Made by a program: the position numbers and the translations under genes. Of a stretch of DNA of 54,210 nt, positions 4,671 through 54,024 are shown one piece after another. Numbering within the stretch: position 1 is the first letter of the stretch; each line of letters begins with the position of its first letter. The stretch is taken from positions 1-54,210 of the IMG/VR virus record IMGVR_UViG_3300042938_001105, one strand, 5' to 3'. Source of the DNA: a virus. The notes under the pieces were generated by a model, which saw only the letters and a list, made by a program, of their open reading frames with translations, did no database searches and was not told the DNA's origin.

Positions 4671-5324
4671 TTATTTAAATTTTTTGATTTTTTCTTTTAA
4701 CCTCATGTCGTTAGCATGTCCCATCCACATTTTTTTAACAATCGGCCACTCATCGTCAGGATTATCAAATTTCATTTGGTTTTCTTTAAACCACTCCTCC
4801 ATGGCATCGGATAAGGATATTTTTTTTGTTTTTGCCCTCTTAATGAGACCTCTAACATAAGCAGGTATTTCTTCGTTAGATGTTAAGTATTTAAAGTTGT
4901 CCTCACCATCTTCTCGGTCATAACTATATATAATTGACATATCTTCAAAATTTTGTTGTTCAATATGTTCTAATTCATGTTCAATCGTTTCTTTAACCTC
5001 AGCAACCAAATCATTCATATGTTTAGGAAAATCTTTAGGTCTATAGGTTATTTCAATATCTAATGATTGCATATCACTACCAGCATCAATAGAGAATGGG
5101 TGATTAAAGTCATTATCTTTAATAAACGAACAACTCATATCAAAATTAGCATAGTCCTCACCTCTATCGAATTGTATCCCTTCCACAACAAAGTCTTCGT
5201 CTTTTTTAAATTGCACTATTACAAGTCTAGATAATTTTAAAGATATCTCATCAGACTTACGTTCATTAATTAGGTTATTTTTTAACCTATCTACAATTTT
5301 TTCTATAATTAAATTTTTTAACAT
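4671..5324 (-). CDS. HExxH metalloprotease-like protein with head-targeting-type N-terminus
   Basis: I start the gene at 5324 rather than the longer frame at 5390. The 217-residue product then begins MLKNLIIEKIVDRLKNNLIN followed by E, the amphipathic peptide ending in I-N-E that recurs in this window. At about residues 113-123 the sequence ETIEHELEHIEQ contains HELEH, a match to the HExxH zinc metalloprotease motif. The flanking E and H residues could supply the third ligand. If the N-terminus is a packaging signal, this would be a protease delivered with the DNA. Both the protease activity and the delivery are inference. The longer frame would add a hydrophobic segment overlapping the divergent promoter region. 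Confidence 0.7.
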   Translation of the reverse strand: MLKNLIIEKIVDRLKNNLINERKSDEISLKLSRLVIVQFKKDEDFVVEGIQFDRGEDYANFDMSCSFIKDNDFNHPFSIDAGSDMQSLDIEITYRPKDFPKHMNDLVAEVKETIEHELEHIEQQNFEDMSIIYSYDREDGEDNFKYLTSNEEIPAYVRGLIKRAKTKKISLSDAMEEWFKENQMKFDNPDDEWPIVKKMWMGHANDMRLKEKIKKFK

Positions 5325-5354
5325 AATAATAAATATCAATTTAAATAAAAGTAG

Positions 5355-5362
5355 TATATTTG
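5355..5362 (+). promoter_or_regulatory. Promoter -7 element for the CAP-domain gene
   Basis: TATATTTG lies 17 bp before the ATG at 5380 and matches the TANNTTTG element. No good TTTG is seen 19-20 bp upstream, so it is only a partial match. Confidence 0.4.
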
Positions 5363-5379
5363 TAAGAAATAAAAACCCT

Positions 5380-5952
5380 ATGAAACACATTTTATCTTTA
5401 TTATCATCTCTATTAGTATCAATTTGTTTATCACAACAATTAGATTACACATATTTTAATACTGAAAAAATGGATAAAGCAATGTTAAAAGAGTTTAACG
5501 AATATCGCAGTTCTTTAAATTTGGATACTTTGGCATATTCTGATGAATTATTTAAAACCTTTTCAAAACCCAATTGTGTTGAAGTAACAAAGTCTTTATC
5601 TTTTTACCATCCAGATATTAGAAACACATGGTTCAATACCGATTTAAAATTTCGTATCGCAAAAGAATCTTCAGTTAAAATTGGTGGTAAAATTATATCA
5701 CATAGTGATGGTACTTACTGGATGGATACCTATGAAAACGCATTTAGAACTACAAGAAGATTTAATACCTATGAAGAATTGGCAGAATATGCAATTTATA
5801 CTTGGTCTATTTCAGATAAAGGTCACCGTGAAGTGCAAATGATGTCTTATTTATCTATGGGATTACCAGGTATGTTTTCTTGTCACTCAGAATTAGGCAC
5901 AAATGGTTATGTTTATATCTATATTAATTTTGTGAAATTACACAGAATGTGA
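5380..5952 (+). CDS. Secreted CAP/SCP-domain-like protein
   Basis: The 190-residue product begins with a cleavable signal peptide (MKHILSLLSSLLVSICLSQQ). The mature part reads like a CAP (SCP/PR-1) domain: EFNEYRSSLNLDTLAYSDEL is the usual first helix, ENAFRTT lies in the middle, WSISDKGHREVQM corresponds to the W-x-S-x-G-H region and YVYIYINFV is the last strand. It would be exported by the host. It is one of few plus-strand genes, convergent with the GAF-like gene whose stop it abuts, and looks like an accessory gene. The canonical CAP histidine pair is not complete, so the family call is moderate. Confidence 0.6.
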   Translation: MKHILSLLSSLLVSICLSQQLDYTYFNTEKMDKAMLKEFNEYRSSLNLDTLAYSDELFKTFSKPNCVEVTKSLSFYHPDIRNTWFNTDLKFRIAKESSVKIGGKIISHSDGTYWMDTYENAFRTTRRFNTYEELAEYAIYTWSISDKGHREVQMMSYLSMGLPGMFSCHSELGTNGYVYIYINFVKLHRM

Positions 5953-6564
5953 TTAACATTCAAGGTGTGTCATAAGAACACCACCCAATGAGGTGGCATG
6001 AACTTGAAGATGATTAATTGATTCCATATCCAATTTTTTCTTACGTTTTGTATACTCTAAACCTAAAGTACCAATGAACTTATCGTCAATTGTCTTAATG
6101 GCAAATAAATATCCGGATTTACAATTGGTGTCCTCAGCAATATACTTTAAACCAAATGTTGCAATTGAATCATCTTTATAATCAGGAATCTCAATAATAT
6201 CATTAGTTAACAGTTCATTGATTGATTTTGAAAATAAATTAACAGGGATGTTGTGAAAATTACTTTGTACAGATGACACCCCATGATTAACCGTTTCATA
6301 CATGATTGAAAACTTAGCCATTGATTTACCTGTTGGGTAGAAATTCCCTCCGTTATGAAATTGTGTTATCCACACTCTATCAGCATCAAACTCATCTTTA
6401 ATGTGTTCTATTTTTGCGGTAACCAATTCACTAACCCTAAGTGTTTCTTTAACCATATCAGGTTTAACTTTTCTCTTATCCAACAAATGTTTTAAATATA
6501 AAACCCCTATTGGGCCGATAACCCCCGATATAAATGCAATTATAATCCCCGAAACATTTTCCAT
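5953..6564 (-). CDS. Membrane-anchored GAF-like protein (203 aa)
   Basis: An N-terminal transmembrane helix (GIIIAFISGVIGPIGVLYL, residues 5-24) precedes a cytoplasmic domain. That domain contains DRVWITQFHNGGNFYPTGK and later GYLFAIKTIDDKFIGTLGLEY, a pattern of strands like a GAF domain. The family occurs in phages without an assigned role as far as I know. It ends immediately next to the convergent CAP gene, and a bidirectional terminator lies just upstream. Confidence 0.65.
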   Translation of the reverse strand: MENVSGIIIAFISGVIGPIGVLYLKHLLDKRKVKPDMVKETLRVSELVTAKIEHIKDEFDADRVWITQFHNGGNFYPTGKSMAKFSIMYETVNHGVSSVQSNFHNIPVNLFSKSINELLTNDIIEIPDYKDDSIATFGLKYIAEDTNCKSGYLFAIKTIDDKFIGTLGLEYTKRKKKLDMESINHLQVHATSLGGVLMTHLEC

Positions 6565-6591
6565 ATTAGTAATAAATATAATTGATAATAA

Positions 6592-6619
6592 AAAAACCTA
6601 CCAAAAAGGGTAGGTTTTT
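6592..6619. terminator. Bidirectional rho-independent terminator
   Basis: AAAAACCTACC, a 5-A loop and GGGTAGGTTTTT form an 11-bp stem with a T-tract on either strand. On the minus strand it ends the holin transcript. Confidence 0.85.
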
Positions 6620-6635
6620 AGTAAAAATAATTTGG

Positions 6636-6898: not shown

Positions 6899-7735
6899 AT
6901 GTTATTAAAAAATGGATCAAAAGGAGATGATGTAAAAAAACTCCAAGAAAAACTAGGTGTCGAAGCAATTGGAACGTTCGGACCTAAAACAGAAGCAGCT
7001 GTTAAAGCATGGCAAAAAGCAAATGGATTAAAGGATGATGGTGTCGTTGGTGATACTACTTGGTCTAAATTATTTGGTGTGTCAGCACCTGTGGCAACAG
7101 TAGTTAAAGAAGATGTGGTTATTCCTTCAGGAGGACCATTAAACCTTGAGAAGTTAAAAGGACACATTCCTGACTCAGTTATTGCACAAATTCCTGAAAC
7201 CGCTAAAAAATTCAATATCACAAATAACTTGAGATTGGCTCACTTCCTTTCACAATGTGGTCATGAATCAGGTGGTTTTAAGGCAGTTTCAGAGAATTTA
7301 AACTACTCTGCGGACGGTTTAAAGAAAATCTTTGGTAAATACTTCCCAGGGAACTTAAATGAGTCGTACGCTCGTCAACCTGAAAAGATTGCCGCTCGTG
7401 TTTACGCATCAAGAATGGGTAATGGTGATGAAACATCAAAAGAAGGATTTAAATTCAGAGGTCGTGGTTATATCCAATTAACAGGAAAAGCAAACTACAC
7501 AAACTTTACCAAATTTATTGGTGAGGATTGTATTGCAAATCCTGATTTGGTTGCAACAAAATATCCTTTGGCTTCTGCAGCATTCTTCTTTGACTCAAAC
7601 AAGTTGTGGTCAATATGTGATAAAGGAGCTGATGATGCTACGGTAACAGCAGTAACAAAACGAGTAAATGGTGGTACCATTGGCTTACCTGACAGAATCA
7701 AACATTTTAAAGAATATTATAATTTATTAAAATAA
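6899..7735 (+). CDS. Endolysin: peptidoglycan-binding domain plus GH19 glycosidase
   Basis: Residues 1-60 form a PG_binding_1 domain (GSKGDDVKKLQEKLGV, AAVKAWQKANGLKDDGVVG). A linker rich in V and P leads to a GH19 chitinase/lysozyme domain from about residue 90. The motif LSQCGHESGGFKAVSENLNY supplies the first catalytic Glu (HESGGF), and FKFRGRGYIQLTGKANY is the classical GH19 substrate-cleft motif. The domain ends at VNGGTIGLPDR. No signal peptide is present, so export would rely on the holin encoded divergently next door. The length (278 residues) is usual for such endolysins. Confidence 0.92.
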   Translation: MLLKNGSKGDDVKKLQEKLGVEAIGTFGPKTEAAVKAWQKANGLKDDGVVGDTTWSKLFGVSAPVATVVKEDVVIPSGGPLNLEKLKGHIPDSVIAQIPETAKKFNITNNLRLAHFLSQCGHESGGFKAVSENLNYSADGLKKIFGKYFPGNLNESYARQPEKIAARVYASRMGNGDETSKEGFKFRGRGYIQLTGKANYTNFTKFIGEDCIANPDLVATKYPLASAAFFFDSNKLWSICDKGADDATVTAVTKRVNGGTIGLPDRIKHFKEYYNLLK

Positions 7736-10318: not shown

Positions 10319-10726
10319 TCATCTGTAATTATCATCACTTCCATCATCCATGTCCTCATCGTTCTCAAGACCACGCCATACACTATCATAATCAGGATTA
10401 TCAGCAAAACCTAATGCTCCACTTTTACTACCTTCTAAATCTCTAATATAATTCTTTAAAAGATTAATAACTTGGTCTATCCTTTCTGCTCTTTGTCTTG
10501 GACTTACTTTTTTACTCAAACTATGTTGACTTGATAAATATCCAAATTGTCCTGGTTCAGAAAAAAGATTACCTTCATCCTCTCTAAAGAATATATCATC
10601 TAATTTTCTTTCAAAATCTAATTCTTTGTCTTCTTTTTTATTTGATTTAAATCCATCACCTTCGTTGACAATTCTTCTAACTATACGAGTTAAATCTCTT
10701 TCTGTTAATCTCATCACTCTTTTCAT
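10319..10726 (-). CDS. Cargo-type protein with shared N-terminal peptide (135 aa)
   Basis: The N-terminus MKRVMRLTERDLTRIVRRIV followed by NEG is an amphipathic basic helix ending at V-N-E (residue 22). It is nearly the same as that of the gene at 53524-54024. The rest is acidic, helical and otherwise unrecognised (FERKLDDIFFREDEGNLFSE). By analogy with the T4 capsid-targeting sequence and the (L/I)-x-E cleavage rule of its prohead protease, I infer packaging into the head and removal of about 22 residues. Confidence 0.7.
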   Translation of the reverse strand: MKRVMRLTERDLTRIVRRIVNEGDGFKSNKKEDKELDFERKLDDIFFREDEGNLFSEPGQFGYLSSQHSLSKKVSPRQRAERIDQVINLLKNYIRDLEGSKSGALGFADNPDYDSVWRGLENDEDMDDGSDDNYR

Positions 10727-11969: not shown

Positions 11970-12536
11970 TTATAATCCTGATTTACTTTTTTCAACTGAC
12001 TTATCACCTGTTGCTGTAGTCATTTTTAATTTATTTTTTTGAACATCTCCTTGTTGGTTATATTTTGTAACTTGTTTGTATTTTGTACCATCATCGTCAG
12101 TTCCTTTTTGAACTTGTCTTCCTGTATTACCTTTTGGGTTCAATAATAATGAAACCGCTTTTTTAACTTCTTCGGCAGTATTATATCCTTGACCGTTATT
12201 TGTCGCATTAACATAGTGGTTAGAACCTTCAGGAAACATTTTTATTTTACCATCAGTCATCCCACTGTGGTGTTGCACATAAAATTTACCACTAGGGTGT
12301 ACCTTATATCCTTCAGGACATGTTGTTCCAGTTAATTGAAAATAATTTTCACTATCTCTTACACACATTGTTTTTTCTACTTTCATAATATACAAATCAC
12401 CGGTATTTGCAGCAGCAACATCTTTGAATGGGCCTTCCACTTTGGTGTATTGTTCATTCAATAGACCCTTTTTAAATCCTTCATGTAAATTAAGGATTCT
12501 TCTTTTCTCTTCTTCACTAATAATAAACTTTCTCAT
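11970..12536 (-). CDS. Cargo-type protein with shared N-terminal peptide (188 aa)
   Basis: I start at the ATG at 12536, giving MRKFIISEEEKRRILNLHEG and then KKGLLNEQ; the longer frame would begin at a TTG. The EEEKxxIL-x-LHE then LLNE pattern recurs in the gene at 14564-15928, with L-N-E at residue 28. The rest is polar and beta-rich, with a TCPEGYKV stretch and a Lys/Thr-rich tail. It looks like a head-packaged protein; the function after delivery is unknown. Confidence 0.72.
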   Translation of the reverse strand: MRKFIISEEEKRRILNLHEGFKKGLLNEQYTKVEGPFKDVAAANTGDLYIMKVEKTMCVRDSENYFQLTGTTCPEGYKVHPSGKFYVQHHSGMTDGKIKMFPEGSNHYVNATNNGQGYNTAEEVKKAVSLLLNPKGNTGRQVQKGTDDDGTKYKQVTKYNQQGDVQKNKLKMTTATGDKSVEKSKSGL

Positions 12537-12537
12537 C

Positions 12538-12837
12538 TTACTGTCCAATAATTAAATCGTTAGGGTCGAAACCATTTGGTCCTTTAACCCTATCTTCTAA
12601 TTCGTCATACATATATGATTTAACCACAGATGTAACTGATTGTTCTGCCTGAGCAATTTTTGATTCCATCCAGTCATCAAGTTGTTCACCTTCCTCCATT
12701 AACTCCCACATTTTGTAACAAAGTGTTGCCATGGTAAACAATTGTTGTTTTGCCATGTAAGAACCTTCGTGGTGTTCTTCTTTGATTGTTCTAACAACTT
12801 GTTTAAATTGTTTTTCTGTTATAATGATTTTGCTCAT
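12538..12837 (-). CDS. Conserved helical protein with shared N-terminal peptide (99 aa)
   Basis: It begins MSKIIITEKQFKQVVRTIKE, ending at I-K-E (residue 20). A helical body with SYMAKQQLFTMATLCYKMWE and ESKIAQAEQSVTSVVKSYMY follows. I recall this body as conserved in marine T4-like phages, without a role. It lies 1 bp upstream of the gene starting at 12536, in one operon of cargo-type genes. Confidence 0.7.
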   Translation of the reverse strand: MSKIIITEKQFKQVVRTIKEEHHEGSYMAKQQLFTMATLCYKMWELMEEGEQLDDWMESKIAQAEQSVTSVVKSYMYDELEDRVKGPNGFDPNDLIIGQ

Positions 12838-12849: not shown

Positions 12850-13332
12850 TTATGCTGCCTTCACAGTTTCCAAAAATCCTTCATTTATTCCTTTTAGTTG
12901 TGCAATGGCTTCAGAGTATGCCTTCATCCCTTGATTTAACTTTTCCAATCTATCCGTCATATCACCACCACCTCTTTTAGGTCCTAACTTATCTGCTCTT
13001 TTTTCTATTTTTTCTTTATTTGCTTCATCAAATAAAAATGATAAATCACTTTCCATTTCAGTTAACTCATTTTGCATCGTTACCGCTCTATTTCTAACTC
13101 TGGTGTATGCCGCTTCAAGATTTGGGTTTAATCTATCCCCACCTGCAAATACTGACCCAAGATTTTGACCAAAAGTTTTAAACCTACTAAAGAACCCAGC
13201 GGTATTTGCTTTTAATTTATCCCACCATCCTTCATTTAATGTTTCAATTCTTTGTCGACTTTCCTGAATAAACCTTTTTTCTGTAAGTTTATTCAATTCT
13301 TGCATTTGTCTAATTTTTGTGTAACTTTTCAT
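12850..13332 (-). CDS. Cargo-type protein with amphipathic, Trp-rich mature start (160 aa)
   Basis: The start at 13332 (MKSYTKIRQMQELNKLTEKR) is chosen over a longer frame that overlaps the next gene. Two candidate cleavage sites are present, I-Q-E at residue 24 and L-N-E at 34. After the latter comes GWWDKLKANTAGFFSRFK, an amphipathic aromatic segment that could insert into membranes. It is similar in placing to LNE-QGFWDGVGN in the 505-residue protein at 16003. The remainder is coiled-coil-like (TRVRNRAVTMQNELTEMESD). Confidence 0.68.
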   Translation of the reverse strand: MKSYTKIRQMQELNKLTEKRFIQESRQRIETLNEGWWDKLKANTAGFFSRFKTFGQNLGSVFAGGDRLNPNLEAAYTRVRNRAVTMQNELTEMESDLSFLFDEANKEKIEKRADKLGPKRGGGDMTDRLEKLNQGMKAYSEAIAQLKGINEGFLETVKAA

Positions 13333-13357
13333 TTTTTTAATTTTATATTTTATTTTA

Positions 13358-13726
13358 TTACCATGTTCTACATGCCCAATATCTTGGTTTCCATCTTGGT
13401 CCAGGATTATCACAATTGTGTCTTGCTCTAAACGATTTTCTTCTTTCAGGATTATTTTTTTTAATCCTCATTATTTTACCTTTGGCTGATTTTCCACCAA
13501 AACCAAAGTTTACTTTAACAACAGTACCTTTGTCGTTTTTAACGTACACCTTGGACTTTTTAATATCTCCCTGCATAATCTTACCAAGTTGGACGTTTCT
13601 ACCCTGATACTCAGCTTCGTTTAAAAAATTAACCTTTTCAACTGATCCATATATATCCTCATATAAATATTTTTTTATAGAGAATTCTTCATTTAATACT
13701 TTTCTAATAATTGATTCTATAATCAT
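13358..13726 (-). CDS. Protein with shared N-terminal peptide and RARHNC/RYWxCRxW domain (122 aa)
   Basis: Starting at 13726 the N-terminus is MIIESIIRKVLNEEF, with L-N-E at residue 13 and a second FLNEAEYQG site near residue 35. The C-terminal half is basic and ends in RRKSFRARHNCDNPGPRWKP then RYWACRTW. I recall this Cys/Trp-rich ending from T4-like phage structural or head-associated proteins (DUF5872-like), not verified. The start excludes the hydrophobic extension of the longer frame, which would overlap the opposing promoter. Confidence 0.68.
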   Translation of the reverse strand: MIIESIIRKVLNEEFSIKKYLYEDIYGSVEKVNFLNEAEYQGRNVQLGKIMQGDIKKSKVYVKNDKGTVVKVNFGFGGKSAKGKIMRIKKNNPERRKSFRARHNCDNPGPRWKPRYWACRTW

Positions 13727-13773
13727 ATTAATAAATATCATATAAAATAAAATAGGCATTATTTAAATTAATA

Positions 13774-14563: not shown

Positions 14564-15928
14564 TTATAAATATGGTTTAATAAATTTATCAAATCTAGTG
14601 TCAGGAGCATCAGGTTTACCGGCTTTCAATGCTAACTTGAAGAATTCGTCATTTGGATCGATTTGTTTACTTGGGAAGATACCTCTTGGATCATACTGTT
14701 TATCTACTTGTTGTTGTAAAACTTTTGTAATTTTACCATTTGTGTCCCAATATATTTTCCACCTAACAACAGGTCTAACGTATGGCTGACCATTTACGTT
14801 CATTTGATATTTAATCTCGTAACTAGACATGTGTGAGTCTGCCGATTTTTTATTTTCGTCTGCCACAAGTAGTGTCTGACTACACGAATCAAAGGTGTTT
14901 GGTCGTGCGCCAGCATTTAATGAGTTTTTACCGTTACAGAAATAAGCACCGGTTAATACAAACCCATCTCTACCTAATTTTTTGAACTCATCAATATTAT
15001 TTGGTATTTTACCTCCAATTGGATCTTTTGGTGTATTATCTGTTGAGCTACTTGTCTCTTCAACACCACAAATATCAATTTCAACTATAACTATTTGTCC
15101 GGGATTTGGGTATTTACCCGTATTACGTGTATCGTCAACCTTACCTCCAGTATCAACAACATAAGATAATACTTGAGGTTTTAATGTAGGACTTAATGCT
15201 ATGCCCTTTGATGGTAAAGTTTTAACTAATTCAGCATAAAGACCGTTAGCCCTATCAACCGCTAATTGTTTGTTTTTAGCAAACTGATTAGGATCATAAG
15301 CAGGATTATCAGGATATTTTTGAAAATTATAATTATTATCCATTTCAGGTTTTACCGGTTTACCTCCGTATCTATTACTAGCCCCACCAGTTAATCTAAT
15401 ACCACTAACCACAGCCTTACCTTTAACATAACTCGCATTAGTTACTTCGTTAGTCTTTATCCCATTAATTAGATTTGCCATGAATTTTGTCATATTTGCA
15501 GGGTTTGATGTTACCCTTACAGGGAAAGACCCTATAACCGTAATTTTAGTACATTTAGCACCAAAACTAGAAGGTGTAACACCTTCCTTAGCAATTTGTG
15601 TTGATGCAGAAACCCCACTATCAACGTCAGGTCCTGAATCGTTACTTTTAGGCTTAGTATCGGCTAAGGTTCCACAACCAGGTGTTCTACCAAAAATTTT
15701 AGTACATATGGCTTCTCTACCTTTAGATGTTGTATGTTTTTTCCAATTTGGGTTCACCCCATCGGTTTTCATTGCATAAAAATATTCGTCACCTTCTTTT
15801 TTATATTGATATGGGTCCCCCTGACCACCTTGCTTAACTTCTTGTTCATTTAATAACTTTTTATAGTTATTATGCATCTCAATTATTTGTTTTTTTTCTT
15901 TTTCATTCAGGATAAACATATTTTTCAT
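14564..15928 (-). CDS. Large cargo-type or virion protein with shared N-terminal peptide (454 aa)
   Basis: The N-terminus MKNMFILNEKEKKQIIEMHN leads to KKLLNEQ, with L-N-E at residue 28, as in the gene at 11970. Residues about 30-90 contain a YFYAMKTDGVNPNWKKHTTS segment and Cys pairs. A central domain (about 130-290) has VIGSFPVRVTSNPANMTKFM, LAVDRANGLYAELVKTLPSK and GQIVIVEIDICG, in an order loosely like an OmpA-type fold. The C-terminal domain holds VRPVVRWKIYWDTNGKI. No signal peptide is present. Function is unknown; delivery to the cell envelope is a guess from the central domain. Confidence 0.72.
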   Translation of the reverse strand: MKNMFILNEKEKKQIIEMHNNYKKLLNEQEVKQGGQGDPYQYKKEGDEYFYAMKTDGVNPNWKKHTTSKGREAICTKIFGRTPGCGTLADTKPKSNDSGPDVDSGVSASTQIAKEGVTPSSFGAKCTKITVIGSFPVRVTSNPANMTKFMANLINGIKTNEVTNASYVKGKAVVSGIRLTGGASNRYGGKPVKPEMDNNYNFQKYPDNPAYDPNQFAKNKQLAVDRANGLYAELVKTLPSKGIALSPTLKPQVLSYVVDTGGKVDDTRNTGKYPNPGQIVIVEIDICGVEETSSSTDNTPKDPIGGKIPNNIDEFKKLGRDGFVLTGAYFCNGKNSLNAGARPNTFDSCSQTLLVADENKKSADSHMSSYEIKYQMNVNGQPYVRPVVRWKIYWDTNGKITKVLQQQVDKQYDPRGIFPSKQIDPNDEFFKLALKAGKPDAPDTRFDKFIKPYL

Positions 15929-16002: not shown

Positions 16003-17520
16003 TTACGCAACCCTTACTTTATTTCCGGGGTTTATTTTTAACCCATTGGCATAATTAAGTTGGTTTAATATTTCCATAGTTAAACCAGCACCTGCAAATT
16101 TTTGTAATATTTTTTGTAGAGTGTCTCCTTTAGCGATTGTATAATATAATTTAGTAACTTTTCCAACAATTTGTTTTGTAATATTTTTATCTCCTACCGC
16201 AGCCACTTTTTTCCCTAAACTTACTAAATCAAAATGGCTACCTTTAGCCACTTTCATATTTTGAGTTAATGCTCCTGTACTGAAATATTTCTTCATTCCT
16301 TTCCCAATTTCTAAAAAAAAGTTTTCAACCGACTTAGTAAATTTTTGGAGTGGCTTCATTACTTTTCCAATTAATGGAATTTTAGTGGTAATCCATGTAA
16401 ATGCTTGTCCTATTTTTGTAATTATTGTTCCTCCACCTGTTACAATTTTTTGTAACCATGGAACTACGGTTTTAGTAATTGCGGGAGTTGTTTTTGAGGC
16501 GCTTGCAATTCCTGGTATAAATGCTTGAATTGATTTAATTGTGGTTAAAGTGGTTTTAACTCCCTTGAATATTGCCGCCGCAGCCCCCGAACCTAATAAT
16601 CCGACACAATCAGTTAATACATTATACCAATTCCAATTTCCTTTTGCGAATCCTTGATACCCAATGTCATAAACAGTTAGTAATCCCCAAGCTATCAAAT
16701 TTACCAAATTACCAACACCCGTTAGAGCTAAAACTATTTGTATAGCTATTCCGGCAACTCCATTTAAAAAATTTCTAAATGTTTCAACCCAATCTTCGAA
16801 TGTCATTTTTTTTATTTTTTCCCAATTGTCGTAAACTTTTTTTGCGTCCATTCCTAATTTGATTGTATTTAATCCTGGAACCAAATACGCAAACTCACTA
16901 TCCAAAAATTTAGTAATATAAGGTGTAACAGTTTGAACCACTTTTTTTCCGATCTCAATACCTTTATTTATTCCTGTTTTTACTGTTTGATATCCTTTTT
17001 GTAACCCAGTTTTTACTGTTTGCACTCCGGCCTTTGCTAGTGCAACACCTTTATTTGCTACTGTTTTTACTGCATTAACACCTGAGTCGACTAAATTACC
17101 AACACCGTCCCAAAATCCTTGTTCATTTAATGAAATGTTAAAATTTCTTCTATTAAGGAATCCACATTCGTAAAGTACGCTACTTTTTAAAAAATCAAAA
17201 AAGTTATACAAAGTTCTAAATGAATGATTGGAACTTTCTAATAACATATTATTTGTAAAATTATTATCAAATTGCTCATGTATGAAATTTGTTCTTGGGA
17301 ATATATCTAAAACGTAATTATCCATCATCTCTTCAAGATATTCTTGTCTTTTAGATTCGTTCATTTTTTTCATGTTTTTAATGTGAAGACCTTTTTGGCT
17401 ATTCAATTCATTAAATAAAGTTCCAAAAACTTTTTTAAAATTTGACATTTCCATTTGTTGTTTTGTTTTTTGAGCAATTAAGTCAACTTGGTTTTCAGAT
17501 AGTAAATATATGTTTTTCAT
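16003..17520 (-). CDS. Membrane-active cargo-type protein with C-terminal LysM (505 aa)
   Basis: The start at 17520 gives MKNIYLLSENQVDLIAQKTK, a shared-type N-terminus. A long leader ends at ISLNE near residue 133. The following QGFWDGVGNLVDSGVNAVKT begins a series of amphipathic 11-residue-like repeats (KTGLQKGYQTVKTGINKG). Strongly hydrophobic segments come next (AIQIVLALTGVGNLVNLIAW; LLGSGAAAAIFKG) and a C-terminal LysM domain (YYTIAKGDTLQKILQKFAGA to NPGNKVRVA). The combination of a long cleavable leader, membrane-inserting helices and a peptidoglycan-binding end suggests a protein ejected to form a channel across the envelope. This is inference. Confidence 0.75.
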   Translation of the reverse strand: MKNIYLLSENQVDLIAQKTKQQMEMSNFKKVFGTLFNELNSQKGLHIKNMKKMNESKRQEYLEEMMDNYVLDIFPRTNFIHEQFDNNFTNNMLLESSNHSFRTLYNFFDFLKSSVLYECGFLNRRNFNISLNEQGFWDGVGNLVDSGVNAVKTVANKGVALAKAGVQTVKTGLQKGYQTVKTGINKGIEIGKKVVQTVTPYITKFLDSEFAYLVPGLNTIKLGMDAKKVYDNWEKIKKMTFEDWVETFRNFLNGVAGIAIQIVLALTGVGNLVNLIAWGLLTVYDIGYQGFAKGNWNWYNVLTDCVGLLGSGAAAAIFKGVKTTLTTIKSIQAFIPGIASASKTTPAITKTVVPWLQKIVTGGGTIITKIGQAFTWITTKIPLIGKVMKPLQKFTKSVENFFLEIGKGMKKYFSTGALTQNMKVAKGSHFDLVSLGKKVAAVGDKNITKQIVGKVTKLYYTIAKGDTLQKILQKFAGAGLTMEILNQLNYANGLKINPGNKVRVA

Positions 17521-17551
17521 TTTCTTTTTAATTATAAATATATAAAGAAAC

Positions 17552-17583
17552 AAAAAAAGGTGGAATCTCTTCCACCTTTTTTT
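17552..17583 (-). terminator. Terminator with the same stem as at 15961
   Basis: AAGGTGGAA, 4-nt loop, TTCCACCTT, flanked by A- and T-tracts. On the minus strand it ends the gene at 17642-17908. Confidence 0.85.
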
Positions 17584-20352: not shown

Positions 20353-21919
20353 TATAATCATTTAAAACTTTAACGAATTCTTGTTGTATCGCTTTGGTTA
20401 ATTGAACATAAGATGTGATATTATCCGTAGCGACTACTTGAGTATTTGTCCCTTCTTTTTCTATTTGTCTCATTGCCGCAAGTATTTGTGGGTCAGATAG
20501 TCTTTTATATTTAGATAATTTTGATTTAATATCTTTTACAAAACTATTATTACCTTTGTAATCACTAATAACCGTTAATCTATTATCGTCATACACAACC
20601 ACCGCTTCTTTTTTATTTCTATGTAGATAACTAATACCTGAAATGTTTGTAATACATTTATGTCCACCTGAATTAGCATTAATAACATCCCAACCATTAA
20701 CCGTAATTCTATCCAATAAGTCTTTTTGTTTGTCTGTTAAATTTCTATAAAGTTTTTCAGAAATATTACCAATAATGGTTAATAGCTTATCATCGGCGTT
20801 TGCGTTAAATGATTCTCTACTTCCATATATGGCAATTAAATCTTTTAGTGTGAACCCAACTGACTCGTATTCGGCTTGTATTTCAGATAGTCTTTTAAGT
20901 GTTCCAAATGTAATCTTCATTCCTTTTAATTCACTTTCAAATTTACCCAATACTTCATTTTTCATTTCACCTAAATCAATACCCTTTAACGCCCTATCCT
21001 CTTTGAATGGGTTACAAGAAGCTTGTACTAATCCTAATGGCCAAGCAATAACTATAAAGTCAGCATCGGGATTGTTTTTAAATGGTGTATATCTATCATA
21101 AGAACCTGGTTTAATCATAGACCCACCACCGTACTGTACAATAATACTACCCACTCTTGTTACGTTTGGATTCTCTTTTTGTTTTTCAATATAATTTGCT
21201 TGGTTTTTAACCAAATCTTCAGTACTTGCATACCCTTTAGTTGATATTTGTTTTTTAATATTATTTAAAATACTTAAAAGTGATGGCTGAGCATTTAATA
21301 CTATCTGTTCTAAAAACTCTGGTTTGTTTTTAAATGCCAATAATAATTTATTTGCAACCAATCCCATTAAAAACTTGTTTGATTTTAAACTACTATCCTT
21401 ATCAAATTTAAGTAAGTAATTCATAACCATTTCAGGTGATATTTTGTTAACCGCAAAATTTGCAGAGTCTACCGTCGATATGATATTAATATCTTCTGTT
21501 GGAAATATGTCTTTTGGTGATACAATTTGTGATATTGTTTCTATGTTTGATCTTGAAGATTTAAAACTTGTGGCGGTTTCTGGTTCAACACCAGCTTGTG
21601 TATCGTGGTGGTCAGTATGAATAACAAACATGGGTTTACCGTGAGCAAAATCAACCAAAACCGGCATCACATCACCACTAGCATCAGGTTTCTTAACTGA
21701 AAATTCTTTATCTCCGTATTGGATAACCTCAGCATCAACCACTTTAATCCCGTAGTTTTCTAAATAACTTTTCATTCCTATCGCAGTGGTAACACCATCT
21801 AAATCTTGATGAAAATAAATTTTAGCCTTTTTGTAACGTTTTGATAATTCATTAATATTTCTAATCCCCGATTCGTTAAGCAATCGTTTGTACTGTGATT
21901 CCGTTATTACCATTTTCAT
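20339..21919 (-). CDS. DHH-family phosphoesterase with shared N-terminal peptide (526 aa)
   Basis: The N-terminus MKMVITESQYKRLLNESG has L-N-E at residue 16, like the other cargo-type proteins. The catalytic domain then follows DHH order: YFHQDLDGVTTAIGMKSY (motif I), PVLVDFAHGKPMF (motif II), VIHTDHHDTQ (DHH motif) and ISTVDSANF (motif IV). A C-terminal SGGHKCITNISG resembles the GGH of DHHA1. DHH/DHHA1 enzymes include NrnA and GdpP, which hydrolyse nanoRNA or cyclic dinucleotides with Mn. A packaged enzyme of this type could destroy nucleotide signals of host defence or salvage nucleotides; that use is inference. Confidence 0.82.
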   Translation of the reverse strand: MKMVITESQYKRLLNESGIRNINELSKRYKKAKIYFHQDLDGVTTAIGMKSYLENYGIKVVDAEVIQYGDKEFSVKKPDASGDVMPVLVDFAHGKPMFVIHTDHHDTQAGVEPETATSFKSSRSNIETISQIVSPKDIFPTEDINIISTVDSANFAVNKISPEMVMNYLLKFDKDSSLKSNKFLMGLVANKLLLAFKNKPEFLEQIVLNAQPSLLSILNNIKKQISTKGYASTEDLVKNQANYIEKQKENPNVTRVGSIIVQYGGGSMIKPGSYDRYTPFKNNPDADFIVIAWPLGLVQASCNPFKEDRALKGIDLGEMKNEVLGKFESELKGMKITFGTLKRLSEIQAEYESVGFTLKDLIAIYGSRESFNANADDKLLTIIGNISEKLYRNLTDKQKDLLDRITVNGWDVINANSGGHKCITNISGISYLHRNKKEAVVVYDDNRLTVISDYKGNNSFVKDIKSKLSKYKRLSDPQILAAMRQIEKEGTNTQVVATDNITSYVQLTKAIQQEFVKVLNDYINKG

Positions 21920-25679: not shown

Positions 25680-26888
25680 TTAATTATGTCTCATTACGTG
25701 ATACCATTTATCATTCACCTTAATCTCATTATCGGCACCATCATACCCATTAAGAATTTCTCCGTAATCACTGTCTCGTAATATGTCTTCACAAACTCCA
25801 TCAATATCAACAAATTCTAAAAGATATTTAGAATCAAATCCCATATCTTCTAAATAACTTGGGAAATCTCTAGAATTTTCTTCAACAAAATTATCTATCA
25901 CCTCTTCAATTGTGTCCTCATCATAATCCCCTTCAGGGTCTTCTTTAATTTCTTCAATAATATCTTCTATACTTGTTATTTCCTCTTCAATTTCTTCAGT
26001 TTCTTCATCAGTTAATTCTTCATTTTCCAATTTATAATTTAACCTTTCTATTTTTTGAGTATAAATTACAACGTACTTTTCTTGTTGTTGTGAAAGTTCT
26101 TTTTCTATCCCATAAGCATCTGGGTCATTTCTTACGGCGTCTTCATGAATATCATATAACCAACTTCTGACTTGCACCATATCTAAATTATTCTCCCAAA
26201 CACTTGTTCCAAAGGCTTCATAACCTAAATCTTCAATATCAGATTTAATTTTTTCATAAGCCGCTGATTCAATATCATCATCAGAATATACAACCCATTC
26301 ACTTTCAAACAACGAATCACCTAACCATTCAAACATATGACTATTTCCATATCCTCCGTATTTTGTTTTATATATGAAATACTTGTCTTCTTTTACCTCT
26401 TCCCCATCTTCATTATCGTATGTTCCAATCTCCCTATTTTGGGATAAATGGTTATATAACGCTTCGGTTTCATATGAAATATCATCACCATTATTTATGT
26501 CCCATTCTTTATTTTCTCTATATTCTTGGAGTTCATTTAATTTTTCTTTTAGTATTTTTTTTCTTTCGATTTGATACATCGTACTAGCCCAATAGTTTAA
26601 TCTACCCTTAACTTTATTTTTATCAAAATATGTTATATTTGTGTATCCAATATCTAAATCCCCGTCAACATAATCAATACTATCAATGTTTGATACCGTT
26701 TTATTACTACTCAAGTCTAATTTACCGGTAATTTTAATTTTCTTACCTCTATAATCAGGTAACCGTTTAATTAATGCTCCGTCACCATTAACGTATTTTA
26801 ATAAATCGATATAATCTTCAGGTGCGATATCAACCCACTCTTCTGACTGTTCTAATACCATATTTTTAATAATATTTTTTATTGACAT
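25680..26888 (-). CDS. Acidic protein with shared N-terminal peptide (402 aa)
   Basis: The start at 26888 gives MSIKNIIKNMVLEQSEEW, with V-L-E at residue 13; the longer frame adds an unrelated hydrophobic lead. Residues about 45-95 look like short leucine-rich steps (KLDLSSNKTVSNIDSIDYVD then GDLDIGYTNI). The middle is very acidic and helical (ELTDEETEEIEEEITSIEDI). Such negative charge could mimic DNA or help pack with it. Function unknown. Confidence 0.68.
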   Translation of the reverse strand: MSIKNIIKNMVLEQSEEWVDIAPEDYIDLLKYVNGDGALIKRLPDYRGKKIKITGKLDLSSNKTVSNIDSIDYVDGDLDIGYTNITYFDKNKVKGRLNYWASTMYQIERKKILKEKLNELQEYRENKEWDINNGDDISYETEALYNHLSQNREIGTYDNEDGEEVKEDKYFIYKTKYGGYGNSHMFEWLGDSLFESEWVVYSDDDIESAAYEKIKSDIEDLGYEAFGTSVWENNLDMVQVRSWLYDIHEDAVRNDPDAYGIEKELSQQQEKYVVIYTQKIERLNYKLENEELTDEETEEIEEEITSIEDIIEEIKEDPEGDYDEDTIEEVIDNFVEENSRDFPSYLEDMGFDSKYLLEFVDIDGVCEDILRDSDYGEILNGYDGADNEIKVNDKWYHVMRHN

Positions 26889-26975
26889 ATAATATAAATA
26901 CTTTCCATTTACAAATGATACTTTTATAGTTATCAAATATTTATATAACAAATAAACTTATTAAAATTTTTAATC

Positions 26976-30847: not shown

Positions 30848-30879
30848 CAAATATAATAAACTTTAACCAATTAAACAAA
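30848..30879 (-). promoter_or_regulatory. Strong Bacteroidota-type promoter
   Basis: The minus strand reads TTTG, 20 nt, TATATTTG. It overlaps the last codons of the LRR gene upstream. Confidence 0.85.
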
Positions 30880-36711: not shown

Positions 36712-38052
36712 TTATTGTGTTTTTCGGTTATACCCTATTAAATTTTTAATTTTTCCCATTTCTGAAATAACTTTTTTGTCTTCAGTAGATTCTTCAACCG
36801 CGTTTAAAACACTTTGTGCGGTTTTCTTACCTTTCATTGAGCCTTTCTTAGTTACGTCACCAGCAACCTCAATAGTGTCTTGTGGGTATCTCTTATATGA
36901 CGCATTCATTTGTTCTTGACCATATAAGTTGTCATCATAATTCTTTTTGAATTTTTCACCAACTTTACTTGGTACAACATTACCTAATGGTTTACCTTCT
37001 TCATCAAATTCAGCATTTCCTGTGGTTCTATGACCCTTCAAATATTTTTCAATTTTCTTATCATCAGGCTTAATCTCATCATAAACAAGATTAGTCATAC
37101 CAGGATATGAAAACGCATCGATATATTCATCAACCGCTTCTGATGGTGTATATTTTTTAAGTGATTCTTTTCTTTTATCCAAGTCATAATTTCCTTCAGG
37201 AAAGCTTGTTGGGTCCATTTCATAATCACCTTTAGAACCATCCTTTAGATATTCTTTCATTTTTTTAGCAACACTTTTAATATAATTGTCATTTTCTTTT
37301 TTAGATTGACCTAAAGTAGATTTAAGTATATTTTGAGCACTTGGTGCTTTACCTTTTTTCTTTTCTTCTTTAACTATGTTTTCAATAATATCTATAATTT
37401 CAGATTCTGTAAAATAAACTTTAGATTCTTTTCTTAACATTTTAAAATCTTCTCTATCAATTCTATTATTTTTGTTTCTATCAATTCTACTTTGATTTCC
37501 GTAAAGTTTTTCGTCTAATTCAAATTCCTCAGAATCTCCTTTTCTTAACATTTTAAAATCTTCTCTATCAATTCTATTATTTTTGTTTCTATCAATTCTA
37601 CTTTGATTTCCGTAAAGTTTTTCGTCTAATTCAATTTCATAAGTGTCTCCACATTCCTCACATACATCTTCGTCTATTTCTTCATCACCCATATCGGTAT
37701 AACTATCAGATGCGTCATCATATCCTTCAGGTCCTCTATATGCAGGACCATTTTCGCCTCTATAGTCATCACCTCTAAGAAGGTTTTCAATATCTTCAAT
37801 AGACATTTTGTTTGGTAATCTTTTTTTACCTAATCTTGGGTGTCCGTCATCCATACCGCCAAGTTCTTGAATGTTACCTTCGTACGTATTTCCACATTCT
37901 TCACACATTTCACCTTCGTTCATTTCTGAACCACATGATTCACACATTTTGGAACCTTCGTTTTCAAATAACCGGTTTTTAATATTTGAGATTCTACCTG
38001 AAAACTCTTCAGATACCACTCTATTTACGATTTTCATAATTTCTCTATTCAT
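36712..38052 (-). CDS. Cargo-type protein with zinc ribbon and duplicated EF-hand loops (446 aa)
   Basis: The N-terminus MNREIMKIVNRVVSEEFSGR has V-S-E at residue 15. A zinc-ribbon-like CESCG ... CEECG follows, with another CEECG near 130. Two copies of a 37-residue unit contain DRNKNNRIDRED, a good EF-hand/dockerin calcium loop (D1, N3, N5, I8, D9, D12). Further on, FTESEIIDIIENIVKEE again resembles the shared N-terminal peptide, and the C-terminus ends EMGKIKNLIGYNRKTQ. Long acidic disordered stretches dominate. It may be a scaffold-like or packaged protein. Confidence 0.72.
   Translation of the reverse strand: MNREIMKIVNRVVSEEFSGRISNIKNRLFENEGSKMCESCGSEMNEGEMCEECGNTYEGNIQELGGMDDGHPRLGKKRLPNKMSIEDIENLLRGDDYRGENGPAYRGPEGYDDASDSYTDMGDEEIDEDVCEECGDTYEIELDEKLYGNQSRIDRNKNNRIDREDFKMLRKGDSEEFELDEKLYGNQSRIDRNKNNRIDREDFKMLRKESKVYFTESEIIDIIENIVKEEKKKGKAPSAQNILKSTLGQSKKENDNYIKSVAKKMKEYLKDGSKGDYEMDPTSFPEGNYDLDKRKESLKKYTPSEAVDEYIDAFSYPGMTNLVYDEIKPDDKKIEKYLKGHRTTGNAEFDEEGKPLGNVVPSKVGEKFKKNYDDNLYGQEQMNASYKRYPQDTIEVAGDVTKKGSMKGKKTAQSVLNAVEESTEDKKVISEMGKIKNLIGYNRKTQ
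37428..37634 (-). repeat. Exact 96-bp direct repeat within the EF-hand gene
   Basis: Positions 37428-37523 and 37539-37634 appear identical over 96 bp, 15 bp apart, a period of 111 bp (37 codons). Each encodes one EF-hand-like unit. Identity at wobble positions implies a recent duplication or gene conversion. Confidence 0.85.
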
Positions 38053-38073: not shown

Positions 38074-38640
38074 TTATAAATCACCACCAAAGGATAATAA
38101 TATAATATTTTTTATTTCATTTTCACTCAATCCGGTTCTTAATGATACATTTTTTATTGCTTCATTAAGTTTAGCGGTTTTAGATATATTCAATGCCTTT
38201 ATATCCCCCTGATTACAATATGGGAAAGTTTTACATTCTTTTTTCACTGATACAAATCCACCTCCCGGTATTTGTGTTTGTTTCCATGAACGCCCCTTAC
38301 CTTTTAAAGTATTACCTTTCATGTTAACATCTTGAAACCCAGGAACATCATACGCACCAACAGAACCTGACCCGGTGGCTTCAGTTGCTTCTATTTTTTT
38401 AGGACAAACACATTTAGATTTTACTCTATCGCAACTATCACAATATTCTTCTTCCCTAACCTCTTTAACTTTTGGTCTTTTGTATTCATTTCTAGCCACG
38501 TCATCTTTAGCAAACATACTAAATGCTGGTCCACTATAACCACCAGCAGAGGACGCCCCTGTCGCTTCTTTTGGTTCTTCTTTTTTCTTTTTTAACGCTT
38601 CGGTAATTAAAGAATGGATATACTCTTTGTTTGTTATCAT
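38074..38640 (-). CDS. Protein with shared N-terminal peptide and EATGS motifs (188 aa)
   Basis: The start at 38640 forms an ATGA overlap with the upstream gene and gives MITNKEYIHSLITEALKKKK, with I-T-E at residue 14. Two EATG-x-S-x-G-x-Y motifs (EATGASSAGGYSGPAF; EATGSGSVGAYDVPGF) and a CDSCDRVKSKCVC zinc site follow. EATGS-type motifs recur in T4-like phage head-associated proteins in my memory. The C-terminus is helical. Probably a virion or assembly protein. Confidence 0.7.
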   Translation of the reverse strand: MITNKEYIHSLITEALKKKKEEPKEATGASSAGGYSGPAFSMFAKDDVARNEYKRPKVKEVREEEYCDSCDRVKSKCVCPKKIEATEATGSGSVGAYDVPGFQDVNMKGNTLKGKGRSWKQTQIPGGGFVSVKKECKTFPYCNQGDIKALNISKTAKLNEAIKNVSLRTGLSENEIKNIILLSFGGDL

Positions 38641-38885
38641 TTCACATTTTTTAATGCTGTCTGCCATTGGTTCTTTTTAGACCACAAATGGTAATAGAAC
38701 TCCGTCATGATCTTAACGACAATATCATTTATGTCACCCCTTAAGGTTCCGTTTTTAATTTCTTTTTTTAACATATCAACAATAGATTTTTCGTACTGTT
38801 TAACCGTACTAGCTTTAAGGAAATCTTTAATCTCCTGTCTAACAATAGTTTCTACTTGTTTTTTATCTTGTTGCGAAAGTGCCAT
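38637..38885 (-). CDS. Conserved small phage protein (82 aa)
   Basis: A helical protein (KKQVETIVRQEIKDFLKAST) ending in the motif FYYHLWSKKNQWQTALKN, which I recall as conserved next to structural genes in T4-like phages. It is coupled to both neighbours by overlapping start and stop codons. Function unknown. Confidence 0.7.
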   Translation of the reverse strand: MALSQQDKKQVETIVRQEIKDFLKASTVKQYEKSIVDMLKKEIKNGTLRGDINDIVVKIMTEFYYHLWSKKNQWQTALKNVK

Positions 38886-39647: not shown

Positions 39648-40213
39648 TATGCTTCAGTTTCTGTTTTAGTTGGTGTTTTCTTTCTTGTTGATATTACTTT
39701 AGCCCATTTAGATTTAAATTTTTCATAAAAAGATGTTAGTTTATCAACTAATTCCGTTAATTTATCATCCAATTTAATCATATCCCCATTAATATATACA
39801 CCATTGTTTTCACCAATAGAATAGAAAAACTCCAAATCAAAGTCGATTACTTTACCACTCCATTGTACCTCATTTGGGTACATGTTTAATACACCAAAAT
39901 CAGACAAGTCAGACACTTCAGAAACAAACTCATCCATAGTTTCTTGGAACGCAGTTTTTTCTTCTGTTGTTAATTCTATATCTCTTTTTTCTTTACCATG
40001 TAAAGTCAAAAGCCCACCTGAAATACGATAAGTTTTACTTTTATCTTTTTTTACATTTTCAGTGTCAACATTTTTTTCTGCCTCCTCATATTCAACATCA
40101 TTATCTTCAATGTTATTTTCAATACTTTTGGCTAAGTTGGTTGCTTCAGGTTGTTCCATTAAAACCCTTGCTCGCTTAAGGAGTGTTTTAAATTGGTCAT
40201 TTTCATTAATCAT
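39647..40213 (-). CDS. Conserved protein with shared N-terminal peptide (188 aa)
   Basis: It begins MINENDQFKTLLKRARVLME, with L-M-E at residue 20. After an acidic linker the body reads YRISGGLLTLHGKEKRDIEL, EKTAFQETMDEFVSEVSDLS and FYSIGENNGVYINGDMIKLD. I recall the body as conserved in related phages near structural genes. It ends in a basic Lys/Thr tail. Packaged or assembly protein, function unknown. Confidence 0.7.
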   Translation of the reverse strand: MINENDQFKTLLKRARVLMEQPEATNLAKSIENNIEDNDVEYEEAEKNVDTENVKKDKSKTYRISGGLLTLHGKEKRDIELTTEEKTAFQETMDEFVSEVSDLSDFGVLNMYPNEVQWSGKVIDFDLEFFYSIGENNGVYINGDMIKLDDKLTELVDKLTSFYEKFKSKWAKVISTRKKTPTKTETEA

Positions 40214-51557: not shown

Positions 51558-51558
51558 A

Positions 51559-52520: not shown

Positions 52521-53437
52521 TATTTAATTTCCTCATAATATTTTTCTATGTCTCCTCTGAGATCACAGACATCTTTATCTTTTGGTAGTTTTACCAATTT
52601 CACTCTGTTGTAAAGAACACCCCCATTTAATTTTTCAAATAACTTTTTGGCATCAAAATAAGCGTCACCATCCAAACATACTATGATATTCTTTTTTGCT
52701 TTTGTGTATAATTTTTCCCAAAGGTTCTCGTTAATATATTTTCCAAGTAAACATATTGAGTTATCCAAAAAGAAACTATCGAACACACCTTCAACAAGAT
52801 ATATGTCTTTTTTCCAATCAATTAAACTCTCGTTGAAAATTAAAAAGTCTTTTGCTGCTTCAGGGTTTTTATATTTTAATCTACTTCTTGGGTTCCAAGA
52901 CCTTGATACAAAAAAGTTTAGTTCACCCTTTTTATTATATGATGGCACAATAATTCTTCCAGCATATTCACCTTCAATACATAATCCTATATTGTACTTA
53001 TTAATGATTTCATCTGTGATACCTCTATTTTTTAAGTAGTTGTACGCTTCTTTTCTTGGGATGTGTAGCGGATGGATTTCTTCAAACTTTTTATACTCCT
53101 TTGGTAGTTCCATCGGTTTATAAACTTTTTCTTTCTTTTCAAACTCATCAGGTCTGATTAGTTTATAAACTTTTTTATCTTTTTTGTTTCCATATTTATC
53201 TATTAGTTTTCCTAAATGTCCGTATGTGCCATGCGTTTCAGCACATGCCCAACATTTATATACATGTTGATGGAAATTGATTTCAAGGTTACCCTTTCCA
53301 TCAGTTTTATCTAACGCTTTAATATCGTATGAACATACCGGACAGTCAACAGACATTTGACCGCTGGATTCATTAACGTTTTTTGGTTCACCAAACATCG
53401 TTAACAATAAATCAACCAATAGGGATTCTTCTTTCAT
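52520..53437 (-). CDS. DNA primase with zinc finger and TOPRIM
   Basis: An N-terminal CHC2-like zinc finger (CPVC at about 33, then HVYKCWAC near 58) precedes a linker. The catalytic region follows: GRIIVPSYNKKGELNFFVSR (primase core), IYLVEGVFDSFFL (TOPRIM Glu) and IIVCLDGDAYFDAKKL (TOPRIM D-x-D). It makes RNA primers for lagging-strand synthesis. No helicase domain follows, so the helicase must be separate. TATCTTTT 5 nt before the ATG looks like a weaker promoter element for a leaderless mRNA. Confidence 0.88.
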   Translation of the reverse strand: MKEESLLVDLLLTMFGEPKNVNESSGQMSVDCPVCSYDIKALDKTDGKGNLEINFHQHVYKCWACAETHGTYGHLGKLIDKYGNKKDKKVYKLIRPDEFEKKEKVYKPMELPKEYKKFEEIHPLHIPRKEAYNYLKNRGITDEIINKYNIGLCIEGEYAGRIIVPSYNKKGELNFFVSRSWNPRSRLKYKNPEAAKDFLIFNESLIDWKKDIYLVEGVFDSFFLDNSICLLGKYINENLWEKLYTKAKKNIIVCLDGDAYFDAKKLFEKLNGGVLYNRVKLVKLPKDKDVCDLRGDIEKYYEEIK

Positions 53438-53479
53438 ACCTAAAAGATACGAATTTTAAAGGGAATGTCAATTAACAAA

Positions 53480-53504
53480 AAACCCACCTTTATGGGGTGG
53501 GTTT
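53480..53504 (-). terminator. Rho-independent terminator
   Basis: AAACCCACC and GGTGGGTTT form a perfect 9-bp stem followed by T residues on the minus strand. It ends the transcript of the gene at 53524. Confidence 0.85.
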
Positions 53505-53523
53505 AAAATATTATATTATTTTA

Positions 53524-54024
53524 TTATCTATTTCCGTCAAAGAAAAACATTTTTTGACGACAAACTAATTGATATTTTTGTTTTTTTCCGTCAGTCATTA
53601 CCATTATTCTTTGTTCATAATCTACAACACCATTTTGGTCCATATTTTCTGTTGAAGTACCACCCTTTACTAATTTTTGTTTTGCTGTAATCTCAAAAGT
53701 TTCACCAGGTTCTACGGTAAAAGGCCCTCGCTCAACAATTGTCATGTTGTCATTCATAGGCATAATTTTCGTTATAGTAAGTGGTGCAGTTCCAGCATTT
53801 CTAAGACCCCTGAATTTAAATTCAATTGTTTGTCCAAATTCAACTTCACCATCTCGGTTACGCACAACCATTGTTCCTACTAAAGGCCCCTTACGCATTT
53901 CAGCCTGCTGAGCTCCCTGTGTTGAAGGATTTGGCATACCTATAGGTCCTTCACCTTCTTCATTAATAACTCGTCTAACGATACGTGCTAAATCTGACTC
54001 AGTTAATCTTACTATTCTTTTCAT
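53524..54024 (-). CDS. Cargo-type protein with Ig-like (DUF1573-like) domain (166 aa)
   Basis: The N-terminus MKRIVRLTESDLARIVRRVI, then NEEG, matches that of the gene at 10319 in most positions, with I-N-E at residue 22. The rest is an Ig-like domain: GQTIEFKFRGLRNAGTAPLT, FTVEPGETFEITAKQKLV and a final strand KYQLVCRQKM. This resembles DUF1573 (N-x-G-x-x-PL-x-I ... PG-x-x-x-x-I). A gp21-like cleavage would leave a compact adhesive domain in the head. Function unknown. Confidence 0.75.
   Translation of the reverse strand: MKRIVRLTESDLARIVRRVINEEGEGPIGMPNPSTQGAQQAEMRKGPLVGTMVVRNRDGEVEFGQTIEFKFRGLRNAGTAPLTITKIMPMNDNMTIVERGPFTVEPGETFEITAKQKLVKGGTSTENMDQNGVVDYEQRIMVMTDGKKQKYQLVCRQKMFFFDGNR

Follow-up and report, generated by a model that had tools for sequence, protein, structure and literature searches.

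Interchangeable N-terminal tags precede dozens of unrelated proteins in a huge phage and suggest an expanded T4-type capsid-targeting system

The stretch of DNA analysed here (the window) is a single IMG/VR record of 54,210 bases that represents the end of a phage contig, G001 (IMGVR_UViG_3300034117_001582, a contig of 291,867 bases). Window bases 249-54210 match G001 bases 1-53962 with 99.998% identity, and a window coordinate equals the G001 coordinate + 248. Gene calls made on G001 with a custom script gave 334 genes, 248 of which are outside the window. A preliminary description of the window had listed 15 genes whose proteins were thought to begin with a short amphipathic tag ending in hydrophobic-x-Glu, followed by unrelated cargo. 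All 15 are present as real genes, all on the minus strand (as are their tags), and an N-terminal tag is supported in 13 of them, either by membership of one of the tag classes described below or by a hydrophobic-x-Glu joint that is kept in relatives amid changing residues. In at least four genes (4671, 12850, 13358, and 25680) the longest open reading frame extends upstream of the tag, which begins at a Met within it.

Class A tags are found at the start of gene 53524-54024 (MKRIVRLTESDLARIVRRVINE, 53959..54024), where the cargo is sub-threshold DUF1573/Ig-like and both tag and joint are kept in relatives, and of gene 10319-10726 (MKRVMRLTERDLTRIVRRIVNE, 10661..10726), where the cargo has no Pfam match. 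Gene 20339-21919, which encodes a DHH/RecJ-like phosphoesterase (Pfam DHH below cut-off), begins with the class B tag MKMVITESQYKRLLNE (21872..21919), and gene 12538-12837 with the class B-like tag MSKIIITEKQFKQVVRTIKE (12778..12837), the hydrophobic-x-Glu of which is kept in relatives. Class E tags lead gene 11970-12548 (ending FIISEEEKRRILNLHEGFKKGLLNE, 12453..12548) and gene 14564-15928 (MKNMFILNEKEKKQIIEMHNNYKKLLNE, 15845..15928); a N-terminus similar to the latter, also tagged, occurs at G001:169964-170812, with no other homologue among the loci. The class D tag MIIESIIRKVLNE (13688..13726) of gene 13358-13759 stands before a cargo that in relatives follows a tag of class A, B, or D. Class D-like tags begin gene 25680-26951 (MSIKNIIKNMVLE, 26850..26888), the relatives of which have RRVLNE/Q, KKIIKE/E, or KNKLNE/E (the slash marks the joint) before similar cargo, and gene 36712-38052 (MNREIMKIVNRVVSE, 38008..38052), with KIINE/T and KILNE/T in relatives and sub-threshold EF-hand and zinc-ribbon matches in the cargo. 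This last gene also holds a direct repeat of 100 bases, 99% identical (window 37428-37638), which encodes a duplicated EF-hand-like stretch. The other supported tags are MAIRFTSILKDLIIE (32194..32238) on gene 30871-32238, with a sub-threshold LRR cargo; MINENDQFKTLLKRARVLME (40154..40213) on gene 39647-40213, with GILTE/Q and GLLTE/Q in relatives; a 34-residue tag ending RIETLNE (13231..13332) on gene 12850-13413, with NFLNE/Q and KIMINE/G in relatives; and MLKNLIIEKIVDRLKNNLINE (5262..5324) on gene 4671-5390, which has a HELEH motif in its cargo. Among the 13, support is weakest for gene 4671; three relatives start with short peptides ending LLLE, and their joint is unaligned residue for residue.

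Tags on two of the listed genes are unsupported. Gene 38074-38667 has a candidate ending HSLITE (38599..38667), and neither of its two relatives has a clear matching joint. In the LysM protein at 16003..17553 the proposed site is beyond residue 130, and there is no informative relative. Gene 22810, which had been added as a seed for one profile, was rejected as a tag bearer; its relatives have D for E and conservation continues past the site. Of the cargo labels given earlier, LysM in gene 16003 is over the Pfam cut-off, and DHH, LRR, EF-hand, and DUF1573/Ig-like were all below it.

The single formula first offered for the tags, (T/S)E-x-x-h-x-x-h-(h)-N-E (h, hydrophobic), proved too narrow. 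Once a held-out profile gave new matches, at least five classes were seen at N-termini, with the consensus sequences xRIIRLTESDLxRIVRRVINE (class A), MKIIITESQYKxLxE (class B), MNLQENIRRIQxMMGxxE (class C), MRELIRHILKEE (class D), and KFIISEEEKxxILxLHE...LLxE (class E). Tag lengths are mostly 7-34 residues. Twelve window tags (11 from the list of 15, plus gene 22810) served to train the held-out profile, which was scored on the G001 genes outside the window; at 8 bits or more it matched 21/248 N-termini compared with 7/1304 interior 45-mers, 0/248 C-termini, and 5/4960 shuffled N-termini. Class profiles, the results of which are partly in-sample on this contig, matched 57/334 N-termini versus 1/1168 interior segments at 9 bits or more, and 69/334 versus 6/1168 at 6 bits or more. 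Depending on the threshold, 57 to 69 of the 334 G001 genes are tagged. They are clustered at about 227-258 kb of the contig, and some of the cargos are paralogues. At 9 bits or more the same profiles matched 43/352 genes of G012 (interior, 2/1121) and 22/309 genes of G015 (interior, 0/1317).

At least 488 class A stretches were confirmed in viral contigs. A search of 84,980 cellular genomes (257 Gb), using a pattern one residue longer than that of the viral search, matched 14, of which 5 were confirmed; class A, the only class so compared, is near-absent from cellular genomes. A tblastn search with the 23-residue class A tag against named phages gave a single match (E=3), which is not informative. 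Two unusual placements were observed: a class-D-like tag (KESIRKVLKEE) at residues about 337-347 of the protein encoded at G001 244713-246308, besides the N-terminal one, and a doubled tag at an N-terminus at G012 95462. Internal or doubled tags possibly mark cargo fusions in which a cut site lies inside the protein.

The class A alignment is conserved up to residue 22, where conservation ends. This residue is Glu in 65/65 unique class A N-termini from viral contigs, with the caveat that the confirming alignment favours similar tags; the Glu was not directly selected for because the search pattern spanned the early part of the tag only. In a wider class A set it is Glu in 163/163, although the model used includes the E. 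Residue 20 (P3) is I, L, V, or M, and residue 21 (P2) varies (N 39, K 13, S 7, others 6). Entropy is 0 at E22, 2.5 bits at residue 23, and 3.1-4.0 beyond. Across the classes, hydrophobic-x-Glu occurs near the tag end in 186/187 class A, 127/142 class B, 39/40 class C, 88/88 class D, and 39/39 class E tags, for a total of 479/496, versus shuffled expectations of 89.5, 62.7, 19.9, 53.8, and 19.0, respectively; several of the class models include the Glu, and the class E model ends before the site. A fixed P1 Glu, a variable P2, and an abrupt loss of conservation are the pattern that would be expected of an (I/L)-x-E protease site. Two class B tags of G001 (229250-229687 and 229736-230146, contig coordinates), both of them inside the window, have Asp replacing Glu (FNLLD). 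In T4, Asp instead of Glu blocks processing and leaves targeting unaffected (PMC9026906).

Behind the tags the proteins differ widely. Among 2,288 unique proteins called on the loci, 454 are tagged at 9 bits. Single-linkage clustering of 446 cargos gave 205 clusters, of which 136 are singletons, which bears out the claim that the sequence behind the tag is unrelated. Fifteen of the 205 clusters contain more than one tag class, and 11 of these have a direct cross-class cargo match at E<=1e-10. The search of related phages for the tag that had been suggested earlier found it on other cargo, with classes being swapped and the joint at the Glu.

We examined the joint in the DHH-type phosphoesterase, for which there are 87 relatives, 82 with an intact N-terminus. 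A hydrophobic-x-Glu is 4 residues or fewer from the cargo start in 82/82 and exactly before S/G-G in 80. P1 is Glu in 80/80 of the DHH joints that were scored. In these relatives the tag is class A, B, or D, or a minimal 7-residue peptide such as MKKLIKE, and regardless of the tag, similarity of the cargo resumes directly after the Glu. The nearest named relatives reached through this protein are the uncultured phages W01 (634,780 bases), W02 (642,428 bases), and W03 (735,411 bases), the last with a weak match (27.9% identity over 32%); a megablast search of window 30000-54210 against named phages gave no match. The 634- and 642-kb phages have MISKYNQFINE and MLRKYGQFINE on this cargo, and the start of a T4 internal protein, MKTYQEFIAE (NC_000866), resembles both. 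In an AlphaFold model of the DHH protein the tag is a helix at residues 7-16 with a confidence score (pLDDT) of about 41, and we therefore make no structural claim. The best PDB matches of the model are weak and to RecJ (E about 1e-3, TM score about 0.3), and the sequence itself had one match to solved structures (E=0.13).

Of 50 tagged or candidate proteins compared with Pfam, six had a family over the cut-off: CarboxypepD_reg, lysozyme+LysM, PAP2, DUF6576, GNAT, and LysM in the unsupported gene 16003. A PADLOC search with 10 tagged-gene proteins (6 from the window and 4 from elsewhere in G001) gave one weak match, to Cas11b (E=0.0042), which is not credible. The tagged lysozyme+LysM protein (G001 257849-258772) is distinct from an untagged peptidoglycan-binding/GH19 lysin at window 6899-7735, and is possibly a head-packaged lysin.

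The search for a gp21-type protease had been set in advance as a computational refutation test of the preliminary description. G001 encodes one: a Peptidase_S77 domain (PF03420, E=5.5e-26) is found at G001:154931-155350, near the gene for a gp23-type major capsid protein (PF07068 match), and the contig also encodes a T4-type portal. The genes run from capsid protein through scaffold-like protein, small protein, and protease and onward to the portal. Gene 152871-154421 is called scaffold-like from its position and composition, and its product has no Pfam match. Tag-like N-termini are also seen in two genes next to that of the capsid protein (8.4 and 6.6 bits), and the corresponding genes of G015 reach 29.9 and 10.8 bits.

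The capsid proteins of G001 and 10 relatives (10 distinct sequences among the 11, and 9 distinct over the first 80 residues) align with T4 gp23, and LINE/A is present in 11/11 where T4 has FLTE/A at residue 65. The counterparts are INE/N in W01 and W02 and MNE/N in W03. By this alignment the capsid propeptide is predicted to end at LINE/A, which has the same h-N-E form as the tags and supports the idea that cleavage would occur after (L/I)-x-E. In a set of 20 other tag-bearing records, S77 and gp23 co-occur in the same 10, including 7/8 records longer than 250 kb. Among the first 10 records, reached through the DHH protein, gp23 is over the cut-off in four (G001 and W01-W03) and is absent from six fragments of 72-112 kb; S77 is below the cut-off in W01-W03 (634-735 kb) and was not found in the six fragments. 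The sub-threshold S77-like matches are within larger frames, at W01 198525-198959 (727 residues), W02 225326-225685 (699 residues), and W03 73997-74341 (811 residues), where the protease is possibly fused to another head protein.

A gene for ribosomal protein S21 (PF01165, E=7.5e-10) is located at G001 156088-156282 on the plus strand, between the protease and the portal and on the strand opposite to them. In bS21-encoding freshwater Bacteroidetes phages the S21 gene is likewise opposite in strand to the genes for the capsid protein, prohead protease, and portal (PMC9723584). The arrangement in G001 matches that of these phages, and we assign the phage to the lake Bacteroidetes bS21 type.

The more distant W02 (642 kb) was also surveyed. 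The class A-E profiles matched 0/907 of its genes. A class of its own, class F, which is T4-like, was found through a count of N-terminal motifs and a simple pattern. A class F profile trained on the first half of W02 and scored on the second matched, at 8 bits or more, 35/464 N-termini versus 5/1741 interior segments and 4/4640 shuffled ones. The pattern Y..F..(.)E alone matched 37/907 N-termini versus 48/3553 interior 40-mers. Many class F tags end F/Y-N-E, not I/L-x-E. On G001 the class F profile matched 2/334 genes at 6 bits or more, neither of them a clear tag. It seems that W02, a distant huge phage with a cargo family in common, has the same kind of system with a different tag. T4-like tags are known in W02 by this survey and in W01 by the DHH locus only.

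The sequences show tags that are enriched at N-termini and end in a fixed Glu, a joint at which tag and cargo are modular, the near-absence of class A from cellular genomes, and a protease, portal, and capsid protein encoded by the same contig, the capsid protein with a matching predicted site. These features are best explained by capsid targeting and cleavage as in T4, extended to dozens of cargos, a reading to which we assign a probability of about 0.87. Each tag would act as a short amphipathic T4-type capsid-targeting sequence that brings its protein to the prohead core during head assembly. Cleavage after hydrophobic-x-Glu by the gp21-type (S77) protease that the phage encodes would then free the cargo inside the head, in which it would be carried and from which it would probably be ejected with the DNA. 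We infer targeting, cleavage, packaging, ejection, and an effector role from these features. The earlier proposal of one delivery tag for many ejected effectors is supported as far as capsid targeting is concerned, but there are several classes of tag in place of one, and ejection and the effector role are putative.

Several observations weigh against this interpretation. The system is known here from sequence, in an uncultured phage, and the capsid cut site is placed by alignment. Half of the tag-bearing records (10/20) are without S77 and gp23; eight of these are shorter than 80 kb, and the other two are 109 kb and 274 kb (G011). Because G011 also lacks a T4-type portal, its head genes are suggested to be missing or divergent. 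In the first 10 records S77 is over the cut-off only in G001. Class B is the weakest for hydrophobic-x-Glu near the tag end (127/142), single-linkage clustering may chain unrelated cargos, and the fold model assigns the tag low confidence. Functional annotation is partial, which limits comparison with replication and tail genes. Lastly, the class A-E sequences are unlike the T4 capsid-targeting sequence, whereas the tags of the 634- and 642-kb phages do resemble it.

An alternative that leaves the first two steps of the mechanism above intact is that the cargo is packaged and cleaved but not ejected, and acts in the head (scaffolding, DNA condensation, or head size), a role that has been suggested for some T4 core proteins. 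T4 IPIII mutants alter head morphology (PMC9026906), and large tag-like proteins at G001 192520-195615 (6.1 bits) and 195641-198277 (4.1 bits) could be structural. However, the cargos include apparent enzymes (lysozyme, PAP2 phosphatase, GNAT acetyltransferase, and DHH-type phosphoesterase) with no obvious role in the head, and the number of tagged genes differs among related genomes (22, 43, and 57), which makes this alternative unlikely. It is less probable still that the tags are docking peptides for another phage structure, such as a membrane or replication-site helix, with the terminal E being part of the docking motif. The peptides do look amphipathic, and classes A and D are rich in Arg/Lys, as would suit a membrane or an acidic partner. 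Yet the variable P2, fixed P1 Glu, and sudden loss of conservation fit an (I/L)-x-E protease site, the predicted end of the capsid propeptide has the same form, and similarity of the DHH cargo restarts right behind the Glu with any tag. That the shared N-termini are mere traces of gene duplication, with C-terminal parts that diverged fast and no targeting role, would suit the clustering of tagged genes and the paralogy of some cargos, but is very improbable and largely refuted by the tag swaps, since the same cargo occurs with different classes (15/205 clusters mixed, 11 with a direct cross-class match), the DHH family has its joint at the same residue, and the few cargos with Pfam families over the cut-off (lysozyme+LysM, PAP2, GNAT) are unrelated.

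The proposed capsid-targeting system has known counterparts. T4 IPI, IPII, IPIII, and Alt likewise have a short N-terminal propeptide before unrelated cargo, which in T4 is removed by gp21, and T4 propeptides are 7 residues (Alt), 10-19 residues (internal proteins), and 65 residues (gp23) long; 10 residues suffice to package a foreign protein (PMC9026906). As in T4, the gp23-type capsid protein has a propeptide of its own, here a predicted one. Unlike T4, which has a handful of such proteins, 57/334 genes of G001 pass the class profiles. The injected T-even anti-restriction proteins Ip1-3 also have only an N-terminal leader in common; that leader directs packaging, and it was used to find more of these proteins, at least 10 in T-even phages (PMC12373910). 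By comparison, the number of candidate cargos in a genome is several times greater here, with several tag classes and in an uncultured phage. Packaged proteins are trimmed after Glu by the prohead protease in phiKZ, with at least 19 cleaved head proteins, and in SPN3US, with 9 substrates (PMC10052503). Six of eight N-terminal propeptides of SPN3US are long (111-254 residues; PMC10052503), compared with mostly 7-34 residues here, and they presumably do not swap, whereas the tags here move between cargos. G001 is like the bS21-encoding lake phages in the placement of S21 and in genome size (up to 331 kb there), but N-terminal tags are not described in the available part of that account (PMC9723584). 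The same source speculates that bS21 itself might be encapsidated. The G001 S21 protein is untagged and would therefore not be packaged by the tag rule, contrary to this speculation.

Among the matches listed in the open-access literature, titles and the starts of abstracts described no such tags in huge phages; preprints and subscription papers were outside this search. The term 'capsid targeting' has 0 occurrences in the main text, as available, of two overviews of jumbo phages (PMC7824862 and PMC13282480). Internal proteins with a shared leader were already known in T4; what is new here is the scale, about sixty tagged genes in a single genome, and the presence of several interchangeable tag classes.

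The odds seem about even that an 'effector secretome' has arisen from T4-style capsid targeting in at least two huge-phage lineages, namely the lake Bacteroidetes group of approximately 300 kb and the phages of 634-642 kb. Each genome would then encode dozens of host-takeover proteins, acquired whenever a gene, of whatever kind, came to lie behind any of several interchangeable tags, and copy number or location within the head might depend on the tag class. Huge phages have many genes of no known function. If capsid targeting by these tags is correct, sequence alone would predict which proteins are virion cargo delivered early in infection, the proteins that many uncultured phages inject could be listed by a simple sequence rule, and what giant phages inject would become directly testable. 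In addition to the capsid-targeting sequence of T4, the tags would be candidate labels for directing proteins into phage heads.

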